Assembly (NCBI RefSeq): GCF_000234355.1
Contig: NZ_AGQV01000005.1
Span: 186,001-250,000 of the forward strand
Length of the DNA stretch: 64,000 nucleotides
Source of the DNA: Gluconobacter morbifer G707
Lineage (GTDB): Bacteria; Pseudomonadota; Alphaproteobacteria; Acetobacterales; Acetobacteraceae
Reading direction: 5' to 3'
Part shown: in pieces, positions 30,113 to 36,619 of the stretch
How the letters are laid out: each line of letters begins with the position of its first letter
Numbering within the stretch: the stretch's first letter is position 1
Made by a program: the position numbers and the translations under genes
The notes under the pieces: generated by a model
Told to the model about the DNA's origin: nothing
The model's database searches: none
Seen by the model: the letters and a program-made list of their open reading frames with translations, nothing else

Positions 30113-31159
30113 TCACTTCTTGCCGAGCGCTTTCCGGGCTTCCTTATCCGAAAGACCATGCACACGCAGGTGATGCCGGAACTGGTAGTAGGTCAGACCC
30201 AGCAGCTCCGCCGCCCGCCTCTGGCTGAACTGTGCGTCACGCAGGGCCCCTTCCAGAAGCAGGCGCTCCTGACCGCGGATCCTGTCCGTGAAATCCAGCG
30301 GGAAGGTCAGCGCGACCTCGCTGTTCGTGACGGTCCTCACGGAAGAAGCGGGGGGGGCGCTGGTCCAGTCCGGCGTGACAAACGGGTCAAGCACGATGTC
30401 GTCCAGCGGACGGTCAGACCGATCCATGCGGTAAACGCTGCGCTCCACCACGTTCCGCAGTTCGCGGACATTGCCCGGCCAGTCATAGTCCCGGAGCCGT
30501 TGCAGGGCATGATCTGTAAAGCCTGCAAAGAGGTCTCGTCCGAGTTCGGAACTCATGCGCGTTGCGAAATGCCCGGCCAGCAGGGGAATATCCTCCGGTC
30601 GCGCTCGAAGAGGCGGGATGGTGATGACGTCGAACGCCAGACGGTCCAGCAGGTCGGGACGGAACCGCCCCTCACGCGCCATGGCGGGAAGATCGGCGTT
30701 CGTGGCGCCAATCAGACGCACATCCACACGGATCGTCTCATTCCCGCCGACACGCTCGAAACTGCCATATTCGATGACCCGCAGCAGTTTTTCCTGCACG
30801 GAGAGCGAAGCCGTTCCGATCTCGTCCAGAAAGAGCGTACCGCCATCCGCCCGCTCGAAACGGGACTGCCGGCGTTTCTGCGCGCCTGTGAAGGCCCCCG
30901 CCTCATGACCGAACAGTTCACTGTCCAGCAGGGCCTCAGGCAGGGCGGCGCAGTTGAGTTTCACCAGCGGCCGGTCCCACCGGTCCGACAGCAGGGCGAG
31001 ACGGGCCGCCACAAGTTCCTTGCCCGTCCCCCGCTCCCCGATCACCAGAACCGGACGGCGCAGCGGTGCCAGACGGGAAACGTGATCCAGCATGGCCAGA
31101 AAGGCCGGATCCTGCCCCAGCGGGGTCGGAACGTCATCCAGTTCAGTCGATCGCACCAT
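30113..31159 (-). CDS. pspF: PspF-type sigma-54 enhancer-binding activator
   Basis: A 348-aa AAA+ activator without a receiver domain, the PspF architecture. Walker A GERGTGKE at 41-48, GAFTGA (sigma-54 contact loop) at 88-93, Walker B GGTLFLDE at 106-113, arginine-finger region RFRPDLLDRL, and a C-terminal Fis-type helix-turn-helix (about 305-335, QRRAAELLGL). It diverges from pspA, as in enterobacteria, and should activate it. In the classical system PspA inhibits PspF by direct binding. Confidence 0.92.
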   Translation of the reverse strand: MVRSTELDDVPTPLGQDPAFLAMLDHVSRLAPLRRPVLVIGERGTGKELVAARLALLSDRWDRPLVKLNCAALPEALLDSELFGHEAGAFTGAQKRRQSRFERADGGTLFLDEIGTASLSVQEKLLRVIEYGSFERVGGNETIRVDVRLIGATNADLPAMAREGRFRPDLLDRLAFDVITIPPLRARPEDIPLLAGHFATRMSSELGRDLFAGFTDHALQRLRDYDWPGNVRELRNVVERSVYRMDRSDRPLDDIVLDPFVTPDWTSAPPASSVRTVTNSEVALTFPLDFTDRIRGQERLLLEGALRDAQFSQRRAAELLGLTYYQFRHHLRVHGLSDKEARKALGKK

Positions 31160-31271
31160 TTACTGGTCTCTTTCGCCACACAATCCTGTCGAAACCATAA
31201 CAGTACCAAAACAGCTCTACTGACAAGACAGCCAGATCTGTCCTAGACCCGAAATCAGGAAGGAAAGCGTC

Positions 31272-31955
31272 ATGGGTATTTTTTCTCGCCTCGCCGACAT
31301 CGTGAACTCCAATCTGAATGCGATCCTCGCCAATGCCGAGGATCCGCAGAAAATGATCCGTCTCGTCATCCAGGAAATGGAAGACACGCTCGTCGAGGTC
31401 CGCAGTCAGGCAGTCCGCACCATTGCCGAGCGCAAGCAGCTCGAGCGGCGTGCCCGCACCATGAGCCATGAGGAAGACGAATGGCATCGCAAGGCTGCCC
31501 TCGCGATCGAGCGGAACAGGGACGATCTTGCCAGGGCAGCCCTCGCCGCCCGCCATACGGTCGGACAGTCGCGCGAAACGCTGGAACAGCAGATCGCGCT
31601 GATTTCCGAAGGGCTGGACCACCAGAATGACGATATCGCCAAGCTTCAGGCCAAGCTGGCCGACGCCAAATCACGGGAAAAAGCCCTCTCCATCCGGACC
31701 CGCACGGCGCAGGGCCGCCTGAAAACCCGCGAGACGCTCCATGACAGCCGCATTGACGACACACTGGGCCGTTTCGCTCAGGTAGAGCGTGCACTGGACG
31801 AACTGGAAGGCAGGGCGGAAGCTTATGATCTCGGGCGGCGTTCAGATCGCCCATCCCTGCATGCCGAACTGGCGGAACTGGAAACGGACGCGGCGGTGGA
31901 AAGCGAGTTCGAGGCTCTCAAACGCAAACTGGCCGGGCAGCCGCGGGAAGCCTGA
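31272..31955 (+). CDS. pspA: Phage shock protein A
   Basis: A 227-aa, almost wholly helical coiled-coil protein with the PspA/IM30 N-terminus MGIFSRLADIVNSNLNAIL and the conserved EDPQKMIRLVIQEME segment. It is a peripheral inner-membrane effector (ESCRT-III superfamily) that stabilises damaged membranes and inhibits PspF. AGGAAGGAAAG lies just upstream. First gene of a run of seven same-strand genes with small or no gaps. Confidence 0.95.
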   Translation: MGIFSRLADIVNSNLNAILANAEDPQKMIRLVIQEMEDTLVEVRSQAVRTIAERKQLERRARTMSHEEDEWHRKAALAIERNRDDLARAALAARHTVGQSRETLEQQIALISEGLDHQNDDIAKLQAKLADAKSREKALSIRTRTAQGRLKTRETLHDSRIDDTLGRFAQVERALDELEGRAEAYDLGRRSDRPSLHAELAELETDAAVESEFEALKRKLAGQPREA

Positions 31956-31981
31956 CGACGCCATGACAGGAGACATCTCTC

Positions 31982-32218
31982 ATGCATGACGATGCGATTC
32001 CCCTTGTGGCGATCGTCCTCTTCTTCGGGACCACCATGTATATCGTGCGCATGATCGCGTATGCTGTCCGTGGCAAACCGCGATCAGATGACCCTGTCCT
32101 TCAGGGTGCCCTGACACAGGCTGAGGCCCATGCGGCCCGTCTCGAAGAAAGGATCGACCAGCTCGAACGGATCCTTGATGAGGATATCCCGGGCTGGAGA
32201 GCAAGGAGTTCTCGATGA
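31982..32218 (+). CDS. pspB: Phage shock protein B
   Basis: A 78-aa protein with one N-terminal membrane helix (about 6-27) and a cytoplasmic helix ending LERILDEDIPGWRAR, which closely follows the PspB C-terminal pattern LE-ILD-E-P-WR. PspB normally forms an inner-membrane complex with PspC that relieves PspA inhibition. The stop overlaps the next gene start (ATGA), so translation is coupled. A canonical pspC is absent next to it. Confidence 0.85.
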   Translation: MHDDAIPLVAIVLFFGTTMYIVRMIAYAVRGKPRSDDPVLQGALTQAEAHAARLEERIDQLERILDEDIPGWRARSSR

Positions 32219-33606
32219 AGTCCCGCACCGTCTTTCGTTCCGCACTCCTGGCTTCGCTGGCCGGGATGGCGTTGATGCATCCCGCACGCGCAGCGCGCGT
32301 CACCCTCTCGGGGGAGGAGCTCGACCTGTCCCTTCCCTGCACGGGAATGGTCAAGGTCATCGTGGATCCGCACATGCAGGACGGTGCGACCCTCGACAGC
32401 AGCAACGCAACGCAGGTGACCATGCACGCCGCGCGGGAGGAAGCGTCCAGCCGCATCACGATCGGCAGCAAGTCTTGCTCGCCGAACGGAAAGGTGACGG
32501 TCAGCATTTCCCCCAATACCGGCCTGTCCATTCATGACAGTCATGACACCCATTTCATCGTGACCGGGGCTCTGGCGTCCCTAGATGCGTCCCTCGATTC
32601 GAACACGATGGAGATCGACGACACCCAGTCCCTCGATCTGAGCATGCGTGGATCTTCCAACGTCTATATCAAGTCGCTTCAGCGGGCCGGGCAGGTCGTG
32701 GCGTCGGGAACATCAAGCTTGACAGCCGATACGGTGCAGCTTGCAGCCTTCTCAGCGCAGCTTTCGCAGAATTCCTCGCTCAGCCTCGGGGGCGGCACGA
32801 TCGACGCCCTCACGCTCATCACCACCAACGAGGCCACCGCCACAATTCTTGGAACGGCCACCGTCGCCACGGTGACGGCCAATGGCAGCGGTGACGTCAA
32901 TATCGACAAGGTCACGGGGCCGATCGTGCGCTCGGGAAGCGGCACCATTCATGTCGGCGCCCAGAACGGCGTGGTGTATCGTCCGACGCCAACCCCGTCG
33001 TCCGCACAGCCACCGGCCGCAACGGCCCCACAGACCACCCCTGTCGCGCCCACGACGCCGGTTCCGGCCGCGCCGTCCCTTCCCGTGCCAACAACCGGAA
33101 GCGCCTCACAGACAGGTCAGGCCCCGGCAGGTCAGCCCCCGGCTTCGCAGGCTCCGGTCACTCCGGCGCCTCCAGCCACGCCAGCAGCTCCGGACGAAAA
33201 CGGAAAAGGCACTACAACATCCGTCACGGCCCCTCCCGCCGAGACGGCACCGACCAGAACGGAACAGGCCCAAACGGGTCAGGCGAGTGCAGGAAATACC
33301 GGGCCGCAGGCGACCCAGGCCGCTCCATCCACAACTTCGCCAGCGACTCCATCAGCGGCCGTCCCAGACACCACGTCCCGCCCCACCACGCCGGCTGGGC
33401 AGTCCACGGAAACCGGGACAAACGGGAACAGGACCAGCGAATCGTCATCGCCGTCACAGGCGCCATCCGCAGAGCAGGCTCCTGAAACGGCTGCGCCGCT
33501 CCCCGGCCAGACCGCGACACCCCCGGCACAGACGCAGACCACCATCCAGCCGGATGGAACCGCTCCTTCCACGCCCCGATCAAGCGCTCCACAGCAAGGG
33601 AACTGA
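32215..33606 (+). CDS. Secreted GIN/DUF2807-like beta-repeat protein with Pro/Thr/Gln-rich tail
   Basis: A 463-aa protein: signal peptide 1-26 (ending ARA); residues about 28-250 form repeating short beta-strands rich in Ser, Thr, Asn and Gly (SSNVYIKSL, SGDVNIDKV, GSGTIHVGA), the pattern of the GIN-domain / DUF2807 beta-solenoid; residues 257-463 are low-complexity Pro/Ala/Thr/Gln, probably disordered and periplasmic. C42 and C88 could form a disulfide. Coupled by ATGA overlap to pspB and 2 bp before a second GIN-like gene. Family assignment is by pattern, not search. Confidence 0.7.
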   Translation: MKSRTVFRSALLASLAGMALMHPARAARVTLSGEELDLSLPCTGMVKVIVDPHMQDGATLDSSNATQVTMHAAREEASSRITIGSKSCSPNGKVTVSISPNTGLSIHDSHDTHFIVTGALASLDASLDSNTMEIDDTQSLDLSMRGSSNVYIKSLQRAGQVVASGTSSLTADTVQLAAFSAQLSQNSSLSLGGGTIDALTLITTNEATATILGTATVATVTANGSGDVNIDKVTGPIVRSGSGTIHVGAQNGVVYRPTPTPSSAQPPAATAPQTTPVAPTTPVPAAPSLPVPTTGSASQTGQAPAGQPPASQAPVTPAPPATPAAPDENGKGTTTSVTAPPAETAPTRTEQAQTGQASAGNTGPQATQAAPSTTSPATPSAAVPDTTSRPTTPAGQSTETGTNGNRTSESSSPSQAPSAEQAPETAAPLPGQTATPPAQTQTTIQPDGTAPSTPRSSAPQQGN

Positions 33607-33608
33607 CA

Positions 33609-34952
33609 ATGATCCCCCGCAGGTTTCTGCCCGCAACGCTGCTTGCCGCAGCCGGCCTTCTGTCTTTCCATCCGGCCGGTGCGGACACGCTGACACTCGG
33701 GCCGACCTGCCTGTCCCGTCTGACCGTTCTTGGGGGTGAGGTGCCACGCGTTATTAGTGGCCCGGAGGACCTGCTCCGGAGCAGGGGGAAAACCACGTCC
33801 TTTCATCTACCGGTTCATGACTGCGGAGATCTGGACAGCGCCACGATCCAGATCCGCCGGGGGACCGACATTCACCTCGCTTCGGGACATGGCCGGACCG
33901 ATTACACCATCAATGGCGTGGATGGAGATCTGAGCGGCACCACGGCAAATGGCGAAGTCGAGGCCGATTCCGTTCGAACGCTGAACCTGAACATTCATGG
34001 ATCGGGGGATATATCCCTCGGCTCTGCAACGGGGCCGGTCACGATCCGGAGTTTTTCTTCGGGAAATTTGACCCTCTCCAGCCTTTCAACGCCCAGTGCC
34101 AGCATCATGGCCATGGGAACCGGGCATATCCGGCTGCTCGGAGGGAATATCGGCAATCTGCGTATCCGGACCTATGGCTCCACAACCATCACCGCTCATG
34201 TCACCGCGCAGGACGCCGATCTCGAAACACTCGGCAGCGGTAATATCATTCTTGATCGCGTGACCGACAACCTGCGAACGGGCGTGTTCGGTTCCGGCAG
34301 CCTGCACGTCCGGAATCAGGAGGGCGCCAGGGCCACAACCACTGCCGCCCCAGAAAAATCGTCGATGTTCTCCGACATCGTTTCGGATGTGATGGACGCC
34401 TTTCAGCCGGATTGGGACGCCACCACCGTCTCCGCGCATGACAGCACACTGCCCGCACCACCAGCGCCGCCTGCCCCGCCCTCTCCTCCCCGTCCCGTCA
34501 CGGTCACCCTGACGGCTTCGGACGACTCCCATCATCCGGTGCTGAAAATTATCCTGGAAGTTCTGCTGATCATCTGGGCGGTCAAGGCATGGCGTCGTTA
34601 CCGGGCGACGGGCGAATACCCTTTCACGAATGCCACCGACCGACTGGCGCGGGGATACGCGCTTTTCCGGCAGCAGTTTCACCAGCAGGGCAGCGAACCC
34701 CGGTCTGTCGGACAGCAGGTCGGCCTCTTCTGGCAGACTCTCCGCACGGCCCTGCGGGAAGACAGGCAATACCGCCAGGCCCAGACAGCAGGCGCTCCCC
34801 TTCCGGCCGGGCATCCGCTGGCGCGCCTCCAGGACCGCCTGAACCGCATGGAGCCACGGATATCACGGATCGAACATTTCGTGACGTCACCCGAATTCGC
34901 GCTGGAACGCCAGTTTCACGACCTTGAGCACCCGCAAAGCCGTCACGGCTGA
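33609..34952 (+). CDS. Membrane-anchored GIN-like protein with PspC-type cytoplasmic tail
   Basis: A 447-aa protein. Signal peptide 1-26; GIN-like beta repeats about 70-235 (LNIHGSGDISLGSATGPV, LETLGSGNIILDRV); Pro-rich linker 281-296; one membrane helix about 309-327; cytoplasmic part 328-447. The end, RISRIEHFVTSPEFALERQF (419-438), lines up with the C-terminus of E. coli PspC as I recall it (REMERYVTSDTFTLRSRF). So a periplasmic domain replaces the usual PspC membrane module while the tail is kept. It follows pspB and a sister GIN-like gene and probably senses envelope stress (inference). Confidence 0.72.
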   Translation: MIPRRFLPATLLAAAGLLSFHPAGADTLTLGPTCLSRLTVLGGEVPRVISGPEDLLRSRGKTTSFHLPVHDCGDLDSATIQIRRGTDIHLASGHGRTDYTINGVDGDLSGTTANGEVEADSVRTLNLNIHGSGDISLGSATGPVTIRSFSSGNLTLSSLSTPSASIMAMGTGHIRLLGGNIGNLRIRTYGSTTITAHVTAQDADLETLGSGNIILDRVTDNLRTGVFGSGSLHVRNQEGARATTTAAPEKSSMFSDIVSDVMDAFQPDWDATTVSAHDSTLPAPPAPPAPPSPPRPVTVTLTASDDSHHPVLKIILEVLLIIWAVKAWRRYRATGEYPFTNATDRLARGYALFRQQFHQQGSEPRSVGQQVGLFWQTLRTALREDRQYRQAQTAGAPLPAGHPLARLQDRLNRMEPRISRIEHFVTSPEFALERQFHDLEHPQSRHG

Positions 34953-34997: not shown

Positions 34998-35783
34998 GTG
35001 AATGCCGTTCTTGATCCCATTGCAGCCCTTGGCCGCACCGTTCTCAATCTCATCCGGCAGTCGGGGTCCATCGCCCTGTTCGCGCTGGAAGCGGTGTCAC
35101 ATCTTGTGCGGCCGCCGTTCTACGGACGCATCTTCCTTGGCAGCCTGATCGAGATCGGTTTTTTCTCCCTGCCGGTCGTGGCGCTGACGGCCCTGTTCTC
35201 CGGCGCGGTCATCGCACTTCAGTCCTATGTCGGGTTCGGCCAGTATCATGCCCAGAGCGCCATCGCCGGGATCGTGGTGCTGGCTGTCACGCGTGAACTG
35301 GGGCCCGTTCTGGCCGGTCTGATGGTGGCCGGGCGCGTGGGAGCGGCCATGTCCGCGCAGATCGGCACCATGCGCGTGACGGATCAGATCGATGCCCTGA
35401 CCACGCTCTCCACCAATCCGATGAAATATCTGGTCACGCCCCGTCTTCTGGCCGGGACGCTGGCGCTGCCGTTCCTCGTCATGATCGCGGACATCCTTGG
35501 CGTTCTGGGCGGGTTTACGGTCTCGGTTTCCAAGCTCGGCTTCTCTCCGGGGACTTACATCACCGCAACATTCAGTTCGCTGAAAACGATGGATGTGACG
35601 GTGGGGCTCGTCAAAGCGGCCGTTTTCGGTTTCCTGATCGCCCTTCTGGGCTGTTATAACGGTTACAACAGTCGGGGCGGCGCGGAAGGCGTGGGTGCGG
35701 CAACGACATCGGCCGTTGTGGGAGCTTCCATCCTGCTTCTGCTGTTTGATTATCTCCTGACGGACCTGTTCTTTTCGCAATGA
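34998..35783 (+). CDS. mlaE: Phospholipid ABC transporter permease MlaE
   Basis: A 261-aa MlaE/YrbE permease. The GTG at 34998 is the start. Features: FYGRIFLGSLIEIGFFSLPVV, the conserved VTRELGPVLAGLMVAGRVGA and EIGTMRVTDQIDAL-type segment (here QIGTMRVTDQIDAL), and five to six membrane helices. It moves glycerophospholipids between inner and outer membranes to keep outer-leaflet asymmetry. Coupled to mlaF by ATGA overlap and 45 bp behind the PspC-tail gene on the same strand. Confidence 0.92.
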   Translation: MNAVLDPIAALGRTVLNLIRQSGSIALFALEAVSHLVRPPFYGRIFLGSLIEIGFFSLPVVALTALFSGAVIALQSYVGFGQYHAQSAIAGIVVLAVTRELGPVLAGLMVAGRVGAAMSAQIGTMRVTDQIDALTTLSTNPMKYLVTPRLLAGTLALPFLVMIADILGVLGGFTVSVSKLGFSPGTYITATFSSLKTMDVTVGLVKAAVFGFLIALLGCYNGYNSRGGAEGVGAATTSAVVGASILLLLFDYLLTDLFFSQ

Positions 35784-36619
35784 CTCCTTCCCCGAACAGT
35801 ATCCCCGCCAGCGGCGCAGGCACCCCGGCCGACAGGCCTCCGAAAATCCGCATCCGTGGCCTGCACAAGGCGTTCGGGCGCAAGCTGGTGCTGGACAGCA
35901 TTGACCTGGACGTCGAAACCGGCACGTCCATGGTCATCATCGGCGGGTCCGGGTCCGGAAAATCGGTTCTGCTGCGCTGTATTCTCGGCCTGATCGAACC
36001 CGATGCGGGCACCATTGAGATCGACGGCGAAAACCTCCTGACGGCGCCGCGCGCCCGACAGGATGCCCTGCGCAAGCAGATCGGCATGCTGTTCCAGAAT
36101 GCGGCCCTGTTCGACAGCATGAGCGTGGGAGACAACGTGGCCTTCGGTGTCCGCGCCAAGCATTCCAGCCGCAATGGTCCGGCTCCAACTCGCCGGCAGG
36201 CGCTGGAACTGGCAGGCGGTCTTCTGGAACAGGTCGGTCTGGACCCGTCCGTGGGAGATCTCAGCCCCTCGGAGCTTTCCGGCGGCATGCAGAAGCGCGT
36301 CGGACTGGCACGGGCCATCGCCGGAAATCCGGACATCATGTTCTTCGATGAACCCACGACCGGCCTTGATCCGATCATGGGCGCTGTCATTGACGGGCTG
36401 ATCGTGGACTGTGTGCAGAAACTGGGCTCCACCGCCATCGCCATCACCCATGACATGGCCTCCGCACAGCGGATCGGGAACCAGGCAGCCATGCTTTATC
36501 AGGGCAGGCTGATCTGGCAGGGCCCTGCGACCGATCTCATGCATTCCGGCAATGCGATGGTGGACCAGTTCACGCATGGCCGCCGCGAAGGACCGATCAA
36601 GATGGAACTGCGGAAATGA
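35780..36619 (+). CDS. mlaF: Phospholipid ABC transporter ATPase MlaF
   Basis: A 279-aa ABC ATPase. Walker A GGSGSGKS at 55-62, signature LSGGMQKRVGLARAI, Walker B IMFFDEPTTGLDP and the switch His in THDM. It powers MlaE. Its start overlaps the mlaE stop and its stop overlaps the next small gene, both as ATGA. No MCE-domain mlaD or mlaC/mlaB follows, which is unusual for an Mla operon. Confidence 0.92.
   Translation: MTPSPNSIPASGAGTPADRPPKIRIRGLHKAFGRKLVLDSIDLDVETGTSMVIIGGSGSGKSVLLRCILGLIEPDAGTIEIDGENLLTAPRARQDALRKQIGMLFQNAALFDSMSVGDNVAFGVRAKHSSRNGPAPTRRQALELAGGLLEQVGLDPSVGDLSPSELSGGMQKRVGLARAIAGNPDIMFFDEPTTGLDPIMGAVIDGLIVDCVQKLGSTAIAITHDMASAQRIGNQAAMLYQGRLIWQGPATDLMHSGNAMVDQFTHGRREGPIKMELRK

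Follow-up and report, generated by a model that had tools for sequence, protein, structure and literature searches.

The stretch of DNA that we analyzed, which we will call the window, comprises 64,000 nucleotides from contig NZ_AGQV01000005.1 of Gluconobacter morbifer G707 (positions 186,001 to 250,000). It contains a phage-shock-protein (Psp) locus with an unusual partner protein. pspA and pspB are followed by two more genes, which we will call X1 and X2; pspF is divergent from these four, and a homolog of mlaE and a gene for an ATP-binding cassette (ABC) ATPase lie downstream of X2 (Table 1). PspF, PspA, and PspB each score above their own cut-offs and are encoded in one divergent locus, so this is a pspFAB-type Psp system. 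An original prediction from this sequence had described pspA, pspB, and two adjacent genes for beta-repeat proteins, with an ATGA overlap between pspB and X1, and we found all of these where it placed them. The locus has no gene for an ordinary PspC, and X2 ends in a PspC-type tail.

The X2 tail is homologous to the tail of PspC. TIGR02978, the NCBIfam model for PspC, matches X2 solely at residues 400-439, which align to model positions 82-121; the score is below the model's cut-off (25.1 bits versus 104). To obtain a profile of the tail, we took the C-terminal 45 residues of 15 ordinary PspC proteins from Acetobacteraceae, excluding four of the 19 available because their tails looked degenerate. 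We compared this profile to 32 of the 37 tailed X2 proteins, which we had aligned (L038, L046, L075, L078, and L087 were excluded), and to 21 of the 26 X1 proteins, which served as a control. All 32 X2s matched the profile (35.1-63.0 bits, with 47.8 bits for the X2 from the window) and none of the 21 X1s did. The top scores for shuffled sequences were 7.6 bits (640 shuffled proteins) and 5.9 bits (1600 proteins with shuffled tails). The shuffles and the X1 control rule out a chance similarity between coiled coils. Across all frames of at least 50 amino acids in the stretches that we fetched, the profile gave 203 matches with E ≤ 10 (with the database size fixed at 1000), and the best 45 of these 203 were exclusively PspCs or X2s.

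The tail is also the most conserved segment of X2. Its mean pairwise identity is 0.83 among 18 proteins from the genus and 0.52 among the 14 others, as compared to 0.54 and 0.33 for the beta-helix, and R417, E422, T426, F430, and L432 are invariant in all 32 aligned proteins. The proposal that the end of X2 resembles the C-terminus of PspC is thus borne out by profile comparison. In enteric bacteria, the C-terminal segment of PspC binds PspA, and by analogy, the X2 tail may do so as well.

The ordinary PspC is missing from the entire genome, not just from the locus. PF04024, which describes the N-terminal domain of PspC, has no match in X2 or in the rest of the window genome (G000; 2.89 Mb and 99.98% complete), and the X2 tail is the sole match to TIGR02978. 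These results rule out an ordinary pspC elsewhere in this genome. They agree with the original prediction that no gene encodes the normal N-terminal module; the canonical pspC that might have been used instead was sought and was not found.

The rest of X2 is predicted to be an exported beta-helix with a single membrane helix. X2 matches DUF2807 (PF10988) above Pfam's cut-off (38.1 versus 24.2 bits) and its predicted structure is a beta-helix, which together identify it as a Toastrack protein. X1 has the same predicted fold, at about residues 29-247, but its match to DUF2807 is under the cut-off (16.8 versus 24.2 bits, E = 0.0061). Because the whole-model E-values from Foldseek were weak (2.1e-3 at best for X2 and 1.8e-2 for X1), the fold assignments rest on a second look with VIA-align. 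So, of the two GIN-like domains that had been proposed, the one in X2 is supported by both sequence and predicted structure, including the expected beta-solenoid, while the one in X1 is supported by the predicted fold but falls short by sequence. X1 has a signal peptide, as identified by eye, and a C-terminus that is rich in proline, alanine, and threonine and is predicted to be disordered; we found neither a membrane helix nor a PspC tail in X1. Neither protein matches any PHROG, and we rejected a phage origin for them. Another exported-looking Toastrack-like protein, of 268 amino acids, is encoded on the window's contig but outside the window (L136:3694-4500, minus strand).

We infer the topology of X2 from hydropathy, charge bias, and a pair of cysteines. 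The signal peptide of the window's X2 is under the hydropathy threshold that we used and has a low predicted local distance difference test score (pLDDT). A membrane helix is predicted by both approaches that we used, at positions (Table 1) that differ slightly from residues 309-327 of the original prediction. The net charge of X2 is -1 over the 15 residues before the helix and +3 over the 15 residues after it. In 29 of the 32 aligned X2s, the charge after the last helix exceeds the charge before it; the exceptions are L042 (equal), one copy from L043 (lower), and one copy from L044 (no such helix was found in the scan). Past the signal peptide, the exported domain has two cysteines in all 32 X2s and in all 21 aligned X1s, and any extra cysteines are found near the N-terminus, within the membrane helix, or in the portion on the cytoplasmic side (as judged by reading the list of sequences). 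X2 probably comprises an exported beta-helix and a cytoplasmic tail.

Table 1. Features of the psp locus, with positions in the window
Feature	Positions	Strand	Remarks
pspF	30113..31159	-	Sigma-54 activator; TIGR02974, 504.5 bits (cut-off 443.55); GAFTGA motif found
pspA	31272..31955	+	TIGR02977, 279.4 bits (cut-off 242.95)
pspB	31982..32218	+	TIGR02976, 57.1 bits (cut-off 51.7)
X1	32215..33606	+	Toastrack-like beta-helix protein; start overlaps pspB by ATGA
X2	33609..34952	+	Toastrack beta-helix between a signal peptide and a single membrane helix; predicted cytoplasmic PspC-type tail
X2, predicted signal peptide	33609..33683	+	Residues 1-25; by eye, hydrophobic stretch ahead of AGA/D
X2, exported domain	33684..34343	+	Residues 26-245; holds the protein's only two cysteines, C34 and C72
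X2, membrane helix	34527..34583	+	Residues 307-325 by hydropathy; helix 310-334 in the model
X2, PspC-type tail	34806..34928	+	Residues 400-440; TIGR02978 match, E = 1.2e-5
mlaE homolog, then ABC ATPase	34998..36619	+	MlaE PF02405, E = 6e-75; ATPase labelled mlaF by eye

The arrangement is conserved in Gluconobacter. The tail is present in 21 of 26 genomes from the genus, in frames of 456-644 amino acids (E = 1.1e-5 or better). No full-length match to PspC was found in any of the 26 at E ≤ 0.1, where we treated a match in G162 (E = 0.087) and a second match in G171 (E = 0.059) as due to chance. Exactly the same 21 genomes contain rpoN; the other five lack the tail, rpoN, and pspA alike. Among loci that carry organism names, the X2 profile matched 20, all from Gluconobacter. 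The gene order is conserved too: of the 20 loci from the genus that we fetched besides the window, 17 have the complete order pspF-pspA-pspB-X1-X2-mlaE, and the other three (L085, L087, and L092) end at the ends of contigs past X2.

X1 and X2 are also found together in eight loci from outside the genus (L042, L043, L044, L047, L051, L053, L055, and L058). In seven of these eight, pspF and pspA adjoin X1-X2, with L042 as the exception, and three loci (L043, L044, and L047) contain two tailed X2 genes each. A second arrangement, in L048, L052, L054, L056, and L060, has an ordinary PspC followed by a Toastrack gene that gives no match to PspC. In a third (L038, L039, L040, L045, and L046), the stretch that we fetched contains pspB and X2 but neither pspF nor pspA, although L039 is uninformative on this point because its contig begins 493 bases ahead of pspB. 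In four of these five, the frame that we scanned matches the tail of PspC; in L046, the tail is in another frame. We did not find pspA in G128 or G145, but these genomes are just 85% and 66% complete. Finally, mlaE is downstream of X2 in all 29 X2-type loci and was found in none of the 24 other psp stretches that we fetched, hinting at a tie between this variant of the Psp system and lipid transport.

To describe the broader distribution, we used samples of genomes from the family, order, class, and phylum, which overlap. Across 150 genomes from the family, pspB was found in 32 at E ≤ 0.001 (21 above the cut-off, with G028 and G113 doubtful among the 32), and PF04024 was above its cut-off in 18. 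The matches from the order sample (299 genomes) were all from the same family, so this sample does not test the distribution beyond it. The window genome alone had a tail-only match to PspC (E ≤ 0.001) in a frame of over 350 amino acids, both among 372 genomes from the class and among 388 from the phylum. Similarly, with the A1 profile and 385 genomes from the class, Toastrack and tail were combined in one match solely in the window genome (at most four candidates were scored per genome). A fusion that is widespread in other bacteria is not supported by the class and phylum samples; we met the tail fusion only in this family.

Other partial matches to PspC were seen. In G021 (L137), positions 66-111 of the PspC model matched within a frame of 1115 amino acids (E = 6.9e-4). 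Frames of 79-146 amino acids from G946, G1042, G952, G345, G440, and G184 matched PspC solely in its middle or C-terminal portion, and these stand apart from ordinary pspC. Given these short frames, the PspC tail may be reused elsewhere too.

PspB from X2-type loci seems to be a lineage of its own. In a tree of PspB (48 sequences by 81 columns, which makes it weak in detail; L041 and L057, where no PspB was found, were excluded), one branch with support of 96/90 separates 31 PspBs that are encoded beside tailed Toastrack proteins from 17 that are encoded beside ordinary PspCs. Therefore pspB seems to have moved together with its partner gene, and the tailed pspB-X2 pair appears to occupy the place of the ordinary pspBC in the Gluconobacter group. 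Three genomes (G043, G049, and G080) have both a pspB-X2 locus without pspF or pspA and a separate pspF-A-B-C locus. The tails of the ordinary PspCs from G043, G080, and G049 score just 17.0, 32.3, and 21.8 bits, as compared to 43.4-73.5 bits for the 15 ordinary tails (leave-one-out). It is tempting to link the stand-alone tailed locus to decay of the tail in the ordinary PspC. This is only suggestive, because the PspC tail from G096 (L057), which has no tailed Toastrack match, is also weak (22.0 bits), and because these four tails are the ones that we had excluded from the profile as degenerate-looking.

Earlier work had already described Toastrack proteins in the place of PspC. According to the available text of PMC11237479 (2024), some alphaproteobacteria have pspFAB with multiple Toastrack proteins in place of PspC (for example, ANQ40502.1). 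The gene content is the same as in the window (pspF, pspA, pspB, and then several Toastrack proteins, with no PspC), and the two loci are very likely of the same kind. The new part is the tail: in that text, no Toastrack protein with a tail of the PspC type is mentioned and Toastrack is predicted to be intracellular, and neither "PspC tail" nor "leucine zipper" occurs in the main text. Judging by titles and the openings of abstracts, none of the papers listed for Psp with Toastrack-type domains, acetic acid bacteria, a C-terminal leucine zipper, or MlaE describes the tail fusion. X2 shares with enteric PspC (TIGR02978, PF04024) the C-terminal ~40 residues, the neighboring pspB, and the position in the operon, but in place of the N-terminal PspC domain it has an exported-looking beta-helix and a single membrane helix. 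LiaG and YvlB from Bacillus subtilis (DUF4097) are also Toastrack-type proteins and are also linked to PspA-like and PspC-like proteins; however, the operon and its regulators are different, and YvlC, which carries the PspC domain there, is a protein of its own (PMC9239133). A further comparison is to the five Acetobacteraceae loci with pspF-A-B-C and Toastrack. There too, a Toastrack gene is downstream of pspFAB, but it is the ordinary PspC that bears the tail.

On balance, we favor, with some reservation, the view that X2 is a single-pass analog of PspC that acts as a receptor for envelope stress. The exported Toastrack beta-helix, which is probably disulfide-bonded, would stand in for the N-terminal module and the membrane part of PspC; the PspA-binding piece would be retained as the cytoplasmic tail, with PspB as the partner. 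Under envelope stress, the exported part, perhaps with soluble X1, would alter X2 and PspB in a way that lets the tail bind PspA at the membrane and release PspF. As to the original claim that PspC was replaced by a GIN-like protein with a PspC tail, the loss of the N-terminal module, the joining of the tail to an exported-looking beta-helix, and the conservation of the arrangement all stand, and the exported domains are putative sensors. The co-occurrence of the tail with rpoN in the genus is consistent with this view. So is PspF: a tryptophan in one of its loops is kept in all 25 X2-type loci and in all 19 others, and we take this to be the W56 of E. coli PspF, in the loop that contacts PspA. 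(The W56 loop of PspF is treated in PMC6003685.)

The promoter region weighs against a receptor that acts through PspF. In the window, the sequence ahead of pspA (31160-31271) contains no site that fits the sigma-54 consensus. A scan for -24/-12 elements in the 220 bases upstream of pspA gave nothing above 18.3 in any of the 25 X2-type loci, while 12 of the 19 other psp loci scored at least 21.8; for 500 shuffles, of the window's region only, the median was 17.3, the 95% point was 20, and the maximum was 23. Alignment of the upstream regions did not reveal a consensus promoter either; instead, most X2-type loci share a CTGACAAG block. Even so, rpoN is present in the window genome, and RpoN looks intact and carries RRTVAKYRE, which we take to be the RpoN box.

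The lack of a consensus sigma-54 site is one reason to consider, as a less likely alternative, that X2 is an anchor or effector instead of a sensor. The tail and PspB would recruit PspA beside the envelope or lipid-transport machinery, X1 and X2 would scaffold the envelope, and transcription would not be governed through X2. The constant presence of mlaE downstream fits this idea, as do the pspB-X2 loci that lack pspF and pspA over the stretch retrieved (for L039, as far as its contig reaches), including the three that coexist with a separate pspF-A-B-C. On the other hand, pspF stays adjacent to pspA, and the joint loss of the tail and rpoN within the genus fits control by PspF and sigma-54.

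It seems improbable that the tail is an old relic of a fusion that does not bind PspA, with X1 and X2 being secreted, adhesin-like beta-helix proteins that are co-transcribed with psp. In favor of this, Pfam annotates DUF2807 as the putative head domain of an adhesin, and in G022 (L042), which has neither pspA nor rpoN, pspB-X1-X2-mlaEF persists with the end of the tail changed to RKSRGSD. Against it, the tail is the most conserved part of X2, with its five invariant residues. The case of G022 also suggests a role for the tail in serving PspA and a further role for the exported part, although this is a single case. Least plausible is a cytoplasmic Toastrack domain, the general prediction for this domain in PMC11237479, which would put the tail outside: this conflicts with the signal peptides (by eye, and by hydropathy in part of the proteins), the charge bias, the conserved cysteine pair, and the description of the DUF4097 domain of LiaG as extracellular in PMC9239133.

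X2 also bears on an old dispute about PspC itself, because published work disagrees on whether the PspC C-terminus is cytoplasmic or lies across the membrane (PMC3068692; PMC5596341). Given the signal peptide and the single helix, the X2 tail should be cytoplasmic. We see an even case for and against a broader proposal: that the PspC tail is a portable module for binding PspA, that in the Acetobacteraceae it was joined to an exported receptor with a beta-helix and a separate lineage of pspB, which yielded a receptor for PspA that crosses the membrane once and signals from outside to inside, and that some genomes kept the tailed pspB-X2 as a second pair beside a pspFABC whose PspC tail looks weakened. 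As a natural protein that retains just the tail segment of PspC, X2 offers a direct way to test whether this tail suffices as the PspA switch. In Gluconobacter and certain relatives among the acetic acid bacteria, the tail resembles a signalling plug that can be reused, and a stress system may exchange its sensor yet retain its output.

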